Shown here: piece by piece, positions 8,069 through 13,056 of the stretch
Layout of the letters: each line of letters opens with the position of its first letter
Position numbering within the stretch: the stretch's first letter is position 1
From: Pedobacter sp. N36a
GTDB taxonomy: Bacteria; Bacteroidota; Bacteroidia; Sphingobacteriales; Sphingobacteriaceae
Direction: 5' to 3'
Assembly (NCBI RefSeq): GCF_014472395.1
Contig: NZ_JACSZW010000001.1
Location: 744,001-808,000 of the forward strand
Length of the DNA stretch: 64,000 nucleotides
The notes under the pieces: model-generated
Databases searched by the model: none
What the model was told of the DNA's origin: nothing
The model's input: only the letters and a program-made list of their open reading frames with translations
Program-made: the position numbers and the translations under genes

Positions 8069-8830
8069 CTAGGCTCCTTTCAAACTTTCCAGCAATTGTT
8101 CATATAAATCGTCGCTGCTTGCTTTTTTAGGTTTCATCTTTTTAACGGTTGCTCGCTTACCCTGGGCTTTCGCTTTTATAATCTTCAGCAACTCTTTAGA
8201 ATAGTCATTTTTAAAGCTATCTATATTAAAAGTAGCAGTGTATTGCTTGATTAAGGCCATTCCTACTGACAACTCTTTTGCATTAATAACAGGCACTTCT
8301 TTCGGTTTTAGATCCTTGGTATCCCTGATTTCTTCCTGAAAACGGATTTTTGTAATGACAATAATCCCGTCCATGGGATGAATGACACAAAGATTTTCAT
8401 GGTTACGCAACACAAAACGCGCAACTCCGGCTTTCTTTGACTTTATAAGTGCCTGCAAAAGTAAAGCATAGGCTTTTTTCCCTTGAGTTTCAGGCTGAGT
8501 ATAATAAGAAGTTTCATAATACACAGGGTTAATATCTATCAGATCAACGAAATTCTCAATTTCTATGACCCCCGTTTTTTCTGGTTTCACTTCTTCAAAA
8601 TCATGTTCATTCAACACAACATATTGGTCTTTAAGGTAATAACCTTTCACGATATGCTCGAAAGGGACTTCCTTCTGCGTTTTCTCATTTACTCTCTTAA
8701 ACTTGATATTAGCATGGTCTCTCTCATCCAGCATATCTAAATCCAGCGTACTGCTTTGTACACCTGAGAATAACTTTACCGGGATATTCACCAAACCAAA
8801 TCCTATAGCACCTTTCCAGATCGCTCTCAT
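8069..8830 (-). CDS. ku: Bacterial Ku protein
   Basis: 253 residues. Homodimeric ring that binds DNA ends and recruits LigD for non-homologous end joining. The N-terminus MRAIWKGAIGFGLVNIPVKL is the diagnostic Ku start; VVLNEHDFEEVKPEKTGVIEI and YYLKDQYVV follow. The C-terminal tail after residue 225 is Lys-rich (AKAQGKRATVKKMKPKKASS) and ends with DDLYEQLLESLKGA, the kind of tail that contacts LigD. Its ATG follows the stop of the 85-residue gene by a single base, so translation is almost certainly coupled. It is the last gene of a four-gene end-joining operon. Confidence 0.97.
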   Translation of the reverse strand: MRAIWKGAIGFGLVNIPVKLFSGVQSSTLDLDMLDERDHANIKFKRVNEKTQKEVPFEHIVKGYYLKDQYVVLNEHDFEEVKPEKTGVIEIENFVDLIDINPVYYETSYYTQPETQGKKAYALLLQALIKSKKAGVARFVLRNHENLCVIHPMDGIIVITKIRFQEEIRDTKDLKPKEVPVINAKELSVGMALIKQYTATFNIDSFKNDYSKELLKIIKAKAQGKRATVKKMKPKKASSDDLYEQLLESLKGA

Positions 8831-8831
8831 G

Positions 8832-9089
8832 TTATTCGGGTTTATTTAAATAATACTGATCAATTTGTTCTCCAGCCTGATCTGCCAGCTCTTTAGCGAT
8901 CAAGCCTTCGGCACACCAGACCCTGCCTTGGGCAGTTTGCTCTGGCCATACCTGCCCAACTGAAGTTTGCTGATCAAACAATTCATATTTTGGTTCTTCC
9001 CGATCAGGAATCACTAATAACCTTTCCCATTGCCCTTCGATCAGCACTTGAATATCAAAGGGTTCCCATGGTTCTTCTACCTTTCCCAT
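8832..9089 (-). CDS. Small conserved-looking protein in the LigD-Ku operon
   Basis: 85 residues, acidic, without signal peptide or membrane segment. It reads like a small beta-rich domain: FDIQVLIEGQWERLLVIPDR, then YELFDQQTSVGQVWPEQ, VWCAEGLIAKELADQAGEQI. Tryptophans at regular spacing (positions 8, 21, 48 and 58) suggest a folded core. It lies 50 bases after ligD and one base before ku on the same strand. I do not recognise a characterised family. The position suggests an accessory role in end joining, or simply co-expression. Confidence 0.8.
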   Translation of the reverse strand: MGKVEEPWEPFDIQVLIEGQWERLLVIPDREEPKYELFDQQTSVGQVWPEQTAQGRVWCAEGLIAKELADQAGEQIDQYYLNKPE

Positions 9090-9139
9090 CTTGCTAATTT
9101 TCTATTTTAAAAAAATCAATTAAAAACCGGTTCCTACAA

Positions 9140-11875
9140 TTACTCCAATAACAGGTCTTCGCTTTTATTGTTTTTAATCACGGTCAGTAGGTCGATCCCT
9201 TTTCCCAATACCGGGCTAAAAATATCTCCGATTTCATTTACTCTGTCTACTACATTGAAAATGGTGAAATCTTTCATCTGTAAACCTTTTTTCAGTTCGT
9301 CCCAATGTAAGGGCATTGAAACCGTTGCTCCAGGTTTCGGACGAAGAGAATAAGGAGCTGCAATGGTAGCCTGAGGCCTGTTTTGCAAAAAATCAAGATA
9401 CATCTTACCCTTCCGATTGGCCACTACACGCTCCAGACTAGTAAATTTTGGCAACTCCTGGTTGACTAGTGTAACAATGATTCTCGCAAACTCTTTACTC
9501 TGTTCATAAGTGTATCTATTGGCCATAGGGATGTAAATGTGCAGTCCTGTAGATCCGCTCGTTTTGCAATACGAGGGCACTCCCATTCCGTCCAAAACTG
9601 CTCTCGTAACCTGTGCAGCCTCAATGACCTGCTCAAAAGAATTTTTCCCGGGATCAAGGTCTATGATGCACCAAGTGGGATGGTCAGGTTTTTGAATCGT
9701 GCTGCTCCAGGGATGCAGCTCAATGCAGCCTAAACTAGCCATATACAATAAAGTTGCCTCATCCTCGCCGACTAAAAAATGCTTGTCTGTATCATTCCCC
9801 TCCGCATGGTACAAATAGGTTTTTATCCATTCGGGCACTTTCCCTGTCACATCTTTCTGGTAAAAACTACCTCCGGTAATCCCATCTGGATAACGATTCA
9901 AAGATTGCGGGCGATCCAGCAGATAAGGCAATATAAAAGGGGCGATTTGATGATAGTAATTGATCATATCTCGTTTAGTGACCTTCTCCACGGGCCAATA
10001 TACTTTACTGAGGTTAGTGAATTTTAAAGAATGTCCGTTTATTTTCTTTACCTGAGTTTCTTCTTCAGGATCCAGTAAAATGGTTTTCCCCGCCCCTTTG
10101 CGACTTCCTTTACTACCATTTTCACTTTTTTCTTTACTTGTCTTTTTGCCTATATTTTTCTTCGCTGCTTCCATTGTGTTTTCATGAATCACTTTGTCCG
10201 TATCTATGATCTCTTCCAGAAATATCTCTTTCGGATCTTTATCGGAGCGCATTCCTTCAAAAGAAGGATGCCTCATCAGCCCAGCAGCTGTCATTTCAGC
10301 AAAGCTAACCTCACAGATTAGCTCTGGCTTTAACCAGGTGGCAGTAGCATTTAATGAATCGTAACGGAAAGGACTGGTTTTATTGACATCCGGTTTGGTT
10401 GCAAAGGGGCTTTTCTCCACTACTAAGGGCTCGAACTGCGCTAGCATTTCCTGCTGTATTTTTACACTAAAACCAGTTCCAATCTTACCGATATAGTTCA
10501 ATTTTCCTTTTTTAAATACCCCTACCAGCAGAGAACTAAAGGGCTTGGGAGTATCTTCATTCCTCGTATAACCACCAATTACGACTTCCTGGCGATGGTT
10601 CGCTTTAATTTTCAACCAATCTGGCGTACGATTTCCAGTATGATATTTGCTATCCATGCGTTTTGCCATGATGCCTTCCAGTCCGGCGCGCTTTGCCGCC
10701 TCCAGGAAATCAATACCCGAGGTTTTAAAATCTTTACTGAGTAAAATAGGTGTAGAAGAAGGAATTATTTCCGCTAGAATTGCTTTCCGATCGATCAGGG
10801 GCAATTCCCTTAAATCATACCCATCATACCATAATATATCAAAAACATAATACCTTAAATCCCCATCTGTTTCGCTGCGCCAGTTTTGCAAAGCCCCAAA
10901 ATTTGCACTGCCTTTTTCATTTAACACGACCACTTCACCATCCAGGACTGCATTTATCCCCCATGATTTTAAGGCCTCATAGATAGGGTAAAACTTCTCG
11001 TTATAAGTCTTGTCATTTCGAGATTTAAACTCAACTTTGGAATCCTTCATAAAGGCAATGGCACGATAACCATCCCATTTGATTTCATAAAGCCAACCTG
11101 GTTCATCAAAAGCTTCATCTACCAGTGTGGCCAGCATTGGCTGTACCTGATCAAAGAAAGGAGCTTTAACGCCTTCTTTCACTAAGCTTAGCAGTTTTTT
11201 CCCCGCAGGCTGGATGCTGTTGGCTTTCTTTTCTGCGGCTTTCCTTATCTTTTCGGGTCTAGGTTTCTGAAGTTTCGTTTTCCCGTAAATCTGATCTGGC
11301 TGCTTTTCCATTTGTGCAATGCTTTTCCTGGAAATCACCGATTTATCTTTTAGAAGAATATCCGTCCTACTTGCATATTTATCTTCCAGTTTCATCAGCA
11401 GCCAACTGTTCTCCCCCTTCCCATAAGCTTTGATCAAGGCGAAAGCACCTTTCAGCTTTTTTCCGCTGAGTATGAATTTGAGTTTGCCGCTGTGTAATTG
11501 ATGGAGCAGCTGCTTTTCCTGCGCTTTCAAATCTTCGGCTTCCGGCTCAAAAGGCACATAAGTTCCCTCGTCCCATACGATTACTGTTCCGCCTCCATAC
11601 TGCCCTTTAGGGATGATGCCTTCGAAATTACGGTAATCATAAGGATGATCCTCCACCATCATCGCGAGTCGCTTGGTATCGGGATCCATTGAAGGACCCT
11701 TTGGAACAGCCCAGCTTTTCAGCACGCCAGCCATTTCTAAGCGAAAATCATAATGAAGATGGGAAGCAGCATGTTTCTGGATCACAAAACGCAGGCTTTT
11801 TCCAGTTCCTTTTCCTCCTTTAGGTTCGGGAGTATCGGCAAATGAACGTTTCTTTTCGTATTCAGTAAGACTCAT
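9140..11875 (-). CDS. ligD: Multidomain ATP-dependent DNA ligase D (phosphoesterase-ligase-polymerase)
   Basis: 911 residues, domains in the order PE-LIG-POL as in Pseudomonas. PE (about 1-190): HLHYDFRLE (39-47), SWAVPKGPS, VEDHPYDYRNFEGIIPKGQY. Ligase (about 240-560): nucleotidyltransferase motif I EIKWDGYR with adenylated Lys266, then DGEVVVLNE, GLEGIMAKR and DWLKIK. Polymerase/primase (about 630-905): LTKVYWP-like LSKVYWP, LLDRPQSLNRYPDG, GCIELHPW, IDLDPG (catalytic Asp pair) and KTSGSTGLHIYIP. The enzyme trims, fills and seals double-strand breaks held by Ku. The long Lys-rich linker (about 580-620) separates LIG and POL. It begins 8 bases after the upstream small gene. Confidence 0.98.
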   Translation of the reverse strand: MSLTEYEKKRSFADTPEPKGGKGTGKSLRFVIQKHAASHLHYDFRLEMAGVLKSWAVPKGPSMDPDTKRLAMMVEDHPYDYRNFEGIIPKGQYGGGTVIVWDEGTYVPFEPEAEDLKAQEKQLLHQLHSGKLKFILSGKKLKGAFALIKAYGKGENSWLLMKLEDKYASRTDILLKDKSVISRKSIAQMEKQPDQIYGKTKLQKPRPEKIRKAAEKKANSIQPAGKKLLSLVKEGVKAPFFDQVQPMLATLVDEAFDEPGWLYEIKWDGYRAIAFMKDSKVEFKSRNDKTYNEKFYPIYEALKSWGINAVLDGEVVVLNEKGSANFGALQNWRSETDGDLRYYVFDILWYDGYDLRELPLIDRKAILAEIIPSSTPILLSKDFKTSGIDFLEAAKRAGLEGIMAKRMDSKYHTGNRTPDWLKIKANHRQEVVIGGYTRNEDTPKPFSSLLVGVFKKGKLNYIGKIGTGFSVKIQQEMLAQFEPLVVEKSPFATKPDVNKTSPFRYDSLNATATWLKPELICEVSFAEMTAAGLMRHPSFEGMRSDKDPKEIFLEEIIDTDKVIHENTMEAAKKNIGKKTSKEKSENGSKGSRKGAGKTILLDPEEETQVKKINGHSLKFTNLSKVYWPVEKVTKRDMINYYHQIAPFILPYLLDRPQSLNRYPDGITGGSFYQKDVTGKVPEWIKTYLYHAEGNDTDKHFLVGEDEATLLYMASLGCIELHPWSSTIQKPDHPTWCIIDLDPGKNSFEQVIEAAQVTRAVLDGMGVPSYCKTSGSTGLHIYIPMANRYTYEQSKEFARIIVTLVNQELPKFTSLERVVANRKGKMYLDFLQNRPQATIAAPYSLRPKPGATVSMPLHWDELKKGLQMKDFTIFNVVDRVNEIGDIFSPVLGKGIDLLTVIKNNKSEDLLLE

Positions 11876-11883
11876 CTTTTTGG

Positions 11884-12138
11884 TTAATTATTAGATTGAT
11901 CGACCAATTGCTCAGCTAATTTTCGTCCTTCAATGGCCATCCCTATATTGATGAGGAATCGTGGAGCCACATGCTGATGATCGGCAGATTGCCACACCTC
12001 TGATTGGGCAATAATGAAAAAACTAGCCCCCTTAGGATACCTAATTCTCATTCCATGCTTTCCCTGATAGTTTTCAGATTTGGCATCCAGGAGCAATAAA
12101 ACCCCTGTTCCAGGTTCTTTTACTTCAATTTGCATCAT
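11884..12138 (-). CDS. Small protein at the head of the LigD-Ku operon
   Basis: 84 residues, soluble. Sequence features: MQIEVKEPGTGVLLLLDAKS, GMRIRYPKGASFFIIAQSEV and a C-terminal helix APRFLINIGMAIEGRKLAEQ. Two consecutive ATGs start it; I keep the first. It is not obviously homologous to the other small protein of this operon. It is the promoter-proximal gene, 8 bases before ligD. No family recognised. Being first in the operon argues that it is part of the end-joining response or its control rather than a passenger, but that is inference. Confidence 0.78.
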   Translation of the reverse strand: MMQIEVKEPGTGVLLLLDAKSENYQGKHGMRIRYPKGASFFIIAQSEVWQSADHQHVAPRFLINIGMAIEGRKLAEQLVDQSNN

Positions 12139-12489: not shown

Positions 12490-13056
12490 ATGAGCCACCA
12501 TAAAAAGGAGTTGTCGATCACGCAGCGTGAAGCACTATTGAACCTATTGAGCAATCGTTTTGAGAAAAACAAAAACCGCCATAAAGGGATAGAATGGGCA
12601 AAAGTACAGTCAAAACTGGAAGCCCGACCGGAAAAACTATGGTCGCTTGATGAAATGGAAAACACAGGTGGTGAACCGGATGTAGTCGCTTATGATGCAA
12701 AGACAGATGAGTACATCTTTTATGACTGTGCTGCTGAAAGTCCTAAAGGCCGCAGAAGTCTTTGTTTCGATTATGAAGCACTGGAATCAAGGAAAGAACA
12801 TAAACCGGAAAACAATGTGATAGATATGGCAGCAGCAATGGGCATTGAACTGCTAACAGAACTACAATACCGGGAACTGCAGCAGCTCGGGAATTTCGAT
12901 TTGAAAACTTCGAGCTGGCTGCAAACACCAGCGAGCATCAGAGCACTTGGTGGTGCCATCTTTGGCGATCGCCGTTACAACACCGTTTTTGTGTACCATA
13001 ATGGAGCGCAATCTTATTATGCTGCAAGAGCATTCCGTGGTTCGTTAAGGGTCTAA
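12490..13056 (+). CDS. DUF4256 family protein
   Basis: 188 residues, soluble, matching DUF4256 over its whole length: LLNLLSNRFEKNKNRHKGIE, WSLDEMENTGGEPDVVAYD (about 52-70), DEYIFYDCAAESPKGRRSLC, then GIELLTELQYRELQQLGNFD and SWLQTPASIRALGGAIFGDR. The function of the family is unknown. The conserved CAAESPKGRR and EPDVV blocks look like an active or ligand site, but no fold assignment can be made from the sequence alone. It is a single gene, followed 17 bases later by a broken YdeI-like gene. Confidence 0.85.
   Translation: MSHHKKELSITQREALLNLLSNRFEKNKNRHKGIEWAKVQSKLEARPEKLWSLDEMENTGGEPDVVAYDAKTDEYIFYDCAAESPKGRRSLCFDYEALESRKEHKPENNVIDMAAAMGIELLTELQYRELQQLGNFDLKTSSWLQTPASIRALGGAIFGDRRYNTVFVYHNGAQSYYAARAFRGSLRV

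Follow-up and report, generated by a model that had tools for sequence, protein, structure and literature searches.

Descriptions of bacterial non-homologous end joining (NHEJ) usually give it two proteins. Pedobacter sp. N36a carries two further small genes, here called small1 and small2, interleaved with its ligD and ku, in a stretch of 64,000 nucleotides that was analysed as a whole (hereafter the window). An earlier note, made by a model from the sequence of the window, suggested that both could be new end-joining accessories or DNA-end adaptors. Are these genes dedicated parts of end joining, passengers in its operon, or proteins of a wider stress and repair repertoire of which one came to be encoded here? 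We address this from the operon itself, from 145 Pedobacter genomes, and from the neighbourhoods in which relatives of the two genes occur.

An end-joining operon with two small genes

Table 1. Features of the gene cluster, with positions counted from the first letter of the window.
Feature	Position	Strand	Basis
small1, 84 aa, first gene of the cluster	11884..12138	(-)	ORF; predicted beta5-alpha, family A2
ligD, 911 aa, phosphoesterase-ligase-polymerase	9140..11875	(-)	PF13298, PF01068, PF04679, PF21686; TIGR02776-02779
small2, 85 aa, predicted acidic beta5-alpha domain, family A1, pI 4.2	8832..9089	(-)	ORF and family alignment
ku, 253 aa	8069..8830	(-)	PF02735, TIGR02772

The order small-ligD-small-ku and the gaps of 8, 50 and 1 nt given in the earlier note are exact according to the ORF coordinates, all on one strand. 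Its nearly complete coupling of the 85-residue protein to ku is reproduced at 1 nt in Pedobacter polysacchareus (G174) and in G191, but the gap is 21 nt in Pedobacter sp. PLR (G226) and in Pedobacter gandavensis (G149). LigD contains the phosphoesterase (PF13298), ligase (PF01068/PF04679) and Prim-Pol (PF21686) domains, all over the Pfam cut-offs, and Ku, of which the genome has only one gene, matches PF02735 with an E value of 9.8e-45 and TIGR02772 with 265 bits against a cut-off of 150. The Ku core beta-barrel and the three-domain LigD that define a bacterial NHEJ system are thus both present, and the cluster is, as predicted from its domains, a conventional bacterial LigD/Ku end-joining operon plus two small genes. 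As in other such operons, both core proteins have the expected domains and are encoded adjacently and co-directionally; the difference here is the extra small genes upstream of ligD and between ligD and ku, found in one Pedobacter clade only.

Since both small genes are under purifying selection in relatives, with dN/dS values (0.05-0.12 for small1 and 0.01-0.11 for small2 in related genomes) like those of ku (0.03-0.05), they are real genes and not chance open reading frames. A scan for sigma70-type promoters and terminators found sites no commoner than in shuffled sequences, with a sigma70 model that is ill-suited to Bacteroidota. Divergent from small1, a gene for a DUF4256 protein (12490-13056, plus strand) is kept in the same clade.

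Distribution across Pedobacter

Among the 145 Pedobacter genomes, Ku is present in 131 and the LigD Prim-Pol domain in 132. small2 adjoins ku in five of the 131 Ku-positive genomes (that of the window, G174, G191, G226 and G149), and in a Ku tree these five form one clade with support of 100/99. The order small1-ligD-small2-ku is conserved in the four intact genomes; in P. polysacchareus, small1 is a remnant with deletions (L085:9229-9468) upstream of an intact ligD-small2-ku. The nearest sampled relatives with an adjacent ligD (G245, G238 and G246), whose ligD is 71% identical to that of the window, have ku directly after ligD, following a short spacer. Because the extra genes occur in one clade and its nearest relatives have ligD and ku directly adjacent, the small genes most likely arrived once. 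Elsewhere in the sample, Ku in G201 lies in two overlapping frames (G201:C1:5267320-5267852), likely a frameshift or a decaying ku, and G233 and G234 have five LigD Prim-Pol matches each, against two or three in many of the others.

Both genes also have close copies outside the operon: those of small2 (49-71% identical) in 13 further genomes, far from ku, and those of small1 (65-74% identical) in four other genomes. The earlier note made its idea conditional on the two proteins accompanying LigD/Ku across Sphingobacteriaceae, and would have given it up if they lay mostly elsewhere. Beyond the single clade, with its five genomes for small2 and four for intact small1, no such co-occurrence was found, and both proteins lie mostly away from ku and ligD. 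They are not general, dedicated Ku/LigD end-joining factors. Tight spacing, conserved order in the four intact genomes and purifying selection speak for the view that both are dedicated accessories or DNA-end adaptors of LigD/Ku; against these stand the 126 of 131 Ku-positive congeners without them beside ku, the loss of small1 in P. polysacchareus, the other copies far from ku, and the strong acidity of small2, which is unlike a DNA-end binder. As a general rule this view is largely refuted, and we regard it as very improbable.

For small1, the wider family (A2) numbers 19 copies in 17 of the 145 genomes. Four adjoin ligD, and none of the other 15 lies less than 15 kb from ku or ligD. Their neighbours are sugar-metabolism and envelope genes and, as read by eye, an esterase-like gene, and no repair markers were found around A2 copies outside the ligD operon. 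The protein has no supported match in Pfam or NCBIfam, and its AlphaFold2 model (pLDDT 90) has a beta5-alpha order similar to that of the small2 model. A comparison of the two as possible paralogues gave a BLASTP E value of 2.5 and an hhalign probability of 8% over 26 columns, so that they appear to be unrelated or only very distantly related, with a homology that is not demonstrable from their sequences. Nothing supports a repair link for small1, which most likely either rides along in the operon or is a general stress protein, in both cases with no role specific to end joining.

The same explanation can be extended to both genes, as neutral passengers: mobile, multi-copy members of stress families that by chance entered the ligD-ku operon of one ancestor and use its promoter while being functionally unrelated to end joining. 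It would account for the occurrence in a single clade, for the close copies of both genes elsewhere, for the persistence of ligD and ku where small1 was deleted, and for the DUF892, DUF2383, DUF4142 and Usp genes found around other small2 relatives. However, all five genomes retain small2 under purifying selection, and the distribution of its family is uneven, with an enrichment next to SRAP and LigD genes. We consider this a serious rival with a reasonable, if less than even, chance of being correct; it fits small1 well and small2 less so, and small1 is the better passenger candidate.

An acidic family with partial linkage to DNA-damage operons

small2 belongs to a family (A1) for which a profile was built from 34 of its relatives. 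With matches counted at E <= 1e-3, A1 occurs in 104 of the 145 Pedobacter genomes, often in several copies per genome, and also in another genus of Sphingobacteriaceae. AlphaFold2 models small2 (pLDDT 85) as five strands with a helix at the C-terminus. The conserved residues of the family (F11, P10, I13, P28, Y35, G45, W58 and G73) would seem to be structural rather than catalytic. Acidity is a family trait, with a mean net charge of -9.2 over 95 non-redundant domains and a pI below 5 in 92% of them, compared to 6% in a background of longer proteins from control regions. For small2 itself, a computed net charge of -11 and a pI of 4.2 make the role of DNA-end adaptor unlikely, as such an adaptor should have a basic or otherwise DNA-binding surface.

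A1 is also found as part of larger proteins. Six sampled PRC-barrel-type proteins of about 280 aa, from several Pedobacter species (L125-L128, L130 and L131), carry it at the C-terminus, with PF05239 present in the one checked (L125). In other proteins it follows an acidic and probably disordered N-terminal stretch. The genome of the window has a second A1 copy of 94 aa (L135, G000:C22:72000-86000), divergent from an A1-like small ORF, and a 76-aa ORF that resembles small1 by eye lies about 5 kb away.

small2 had no supported match in Pfam or NCBIfam, nor in PHROGs or PADLOC, the latter two being scanned for the small2 family only. PDB sequence searches with single proteins and profiles for small1 and small2 returned nothing. 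In Foldseek and VIA-align nothing rose over background (the best Z values being 4.6 and 4.2), PC4-like and SH3/Tudor-like folds were neither singled out nor excluded by the structural match lists, and a comparison of the small2 model with viral models reached at best an E value of 0.05, also within background. Plasmids searched with small1 and small2, and phages searched with a prophage-type A1, yielded no matches. From its sequence and predicted fold, small2 is a member of an unnamed acidic beta5-alpha family that is missing from Pfam, NCBIfam and PADLOC. We take the family to be previously undescribed following a limited literature search, so that an earlier description is possible.

The genomic context of A1 points to DNA damage in three kinds of layout. 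In the usual one, the order is UmuD-UmuC, a protein of about 200 aa, SRAP, A1 and DUF72 (L160, L164, L273 and L275, with variants in L136 and L188). In three of the four loci the C-terminus of the protein of about 200 aa matches A1 weakly; in L275 this protein has 212 aa and is not scored as A1, and SRAP is separated from A1 by a further gene. This recurrent operon (in genomes G165, G250, G139 and G205, respectively) has at its end a convergent ATL/MGMT-like gene. In the second layout, SRAP and A1 are separated by anything from a 20-nt overlap to a 2-nt gap (L277, L276, L272 and L186), with phage-tail-like genes adjoining in at least some cases; across L272, L276, L277, L186 and L188, the A1-SRAP gaps range from -20 to +10 nt. 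The third layout is ligD-DUF3606-Fpg-A1, with gaps of 26, 0 and 39 nt (L132, G173:C8:908000-918000). This operon is divergent from genes for a Mn-catalase and a CinA-like protein, with no Ku nearby.

Counts over the sample agree with this picture, within limits. Among the 150 A1 copies listed, 14, spread over 12 genomes, are no more than 1.2 kb from an SRAP gene, where uniform placement would give 0.15 within 3 kb. With SRAP located in all 145 genomes, this is an enrichment of about 100-fold, the Poisson significance of which is overstated because related operons are not independent events. Ten of the listed copies lie within 10 kb of LigD/Ku, compared to about 1.1 expected: five from the clade of the window, one each from G200, G173 and G212, and two in tandem from G246. 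The association is not circular, since A1 members were mostly picked by sequence similarity before their context was looked at (of the 34, four were picked afterwards: one each from L102 and L101 and two from L095). In a hold-out test of 40 uninspected A1 loci and 40 controls, each control taken from the same contig at half the coordinate, with markers taken from the A1 loci inspected earlier, a repair marker was present in 9 of 40 loci versus 1 of 40 controls (Fisher p = 0.014), and the other 31 loci had none. General stress markers were not significantly enriched in this test (9/40 versus 4/40, p = 0.22), and the "stress island" context thus rests on individual loci. Most A1 copies are not adjacent to a repair gene, and the genes most similar to small2 (49-71% identical) have mainly stress or miscellaneous neighbours. 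Because the counts are not phylogenetically independent, come from 150 listed copies, and leave about 90% of SRAP genes without an A1 neighbour, the linkage of A1 to DNA-damage operons is real but partial. For small2, then, the repair link suggested in the earlier note finds support, and it does so from the context of other operons.

A proposed recruited accessory and its parallels

The explanation that we favor, while putting it at about an even chance, is that small2 is a stress or DNA-damage accessory that was recruited once into the ligD-ku operon and acts through protein contacts, with small1 a likely passenger. The ancestor of one small Pedobacter clade would have gained two small beta5-alpha genes in its ligD-ku operon. 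One of them, small2, belongs to a family that recurs in DNA-damage operons (UmuD-UmuC-SRAP-A1-DUF72, prophage-like SRAP-A1, ligD-DUF3606-Fpg-A1 and ligD-A1-ku), as well as in some general-stress islands and in fusions to PRC-barrel proteins. small2 would then be co-expressed with LigD/Ku under DNA damage or stationary stress, and would work as a small protein-binding accessory (an adaptor or DNA-mimic-like regulator) on a co-encoded repair protein, not as a DNA-end binder. For an acidic beta5-alpha protein beside varied DNA enzymes, the part of adaptor, chaperone or DNA-mimic-like regulator is easier to picture than that of a protein that binds DNA ends. Given that no fold match was found, we infer this mechanism from charge and context. 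A change in the LigD interface tied to small2 was also looked for: compared to the ligD-ku relatives, the linkers in LigD of the clade are longer and its C-terminus bears an additional short acidic tail, which is not diagnostic.

A bolder and more doubtful proposal is that A1 as a whole is an acidic accessory of the Bacteroidota DNA-damage response, docking on or regulating such unrelated repair machines as the SRAP/UmuDC mutasome, Fpg-type glycosylases and LigD/Ku, and a modulator of NHEJ in the clade of the window. If LigD/Ku is indeed modulated by small2, end joining in this lineage would have a third component of its own, and the A1 genes of UmuDC-SRAP operons would point to one acidic accessory common to mutagenic bypass, base excision and end joining in Bacteroidota. 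If small2 is no more than co-regulated, A1 is still an unannotated marker of Pedobacter stress and DNA-damage operons, one that has no Pfam or NCBIfam entry.

Known systems offer several partial parallels. Among the SRAP gene neighbourhoods reported by Aravind and colleagues (PMC3765255) are ones with UmuCD, with DinB, and with Ku together with an ATP-dependent ligase. A1 occurs in the same kinds of operon as these SOS neighbourhoods of SRAP (YedK/HMCES, PF02586), namely UmuDC-SRAP and LigD/Ku, whereas small2 itself has no SRAP neighbour; the parts of that paper covered here make no mention of a small acidic domain of the A1 type. In the PRC-barrel proteins (PF05239) A1 is a C-terminal domain, and small2 is a stand-alone domain with no PRC barrel.

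The DNA mimics UGI and SAUGI share with small2 an acidic, small and beta-sheet character, as judged from charge, length and five predicted strands. By analogy with these uracil-DNA glycosylase inhibitors, small2 could be a DNA mimic that inhibits or regulates a repair enzyme, restraining LigD/Ku, Fpg or UmuDC. Its 85 residues, five strands plus helix and charge would suit such a role, as would the Fpg/Nei and LigD neighbours of A1. UGI and SAUGI do appear among its weak structural matches at Z 3.2-3.6, but tied with unrelated folds that reach Z 4.6, with none above 5, and the PRC-barrel fusions do not suggest a mimic. We hold this specific reading to be unlikely.

The possible nearest functional parallel to A1, by analogy, is YolD (PF08863), a small beta-rich SOS accessory encoded with Y-family polymerases and described with polymerases of the gram-positive type (PMC6511836). 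None of the 34 A1 members matches PF08863 at E values up to 1. As to the SH3-like beta-barrel expected of a YolD protein, small2 is modelled with five strands plus a helix, and no PDB entry stands out as a match. Like YolD, whose own role is unproven, A1 proteins are small and beta-rich and can be encoded next to umuC-like genes, and it is in this respect that the two may be comparable.
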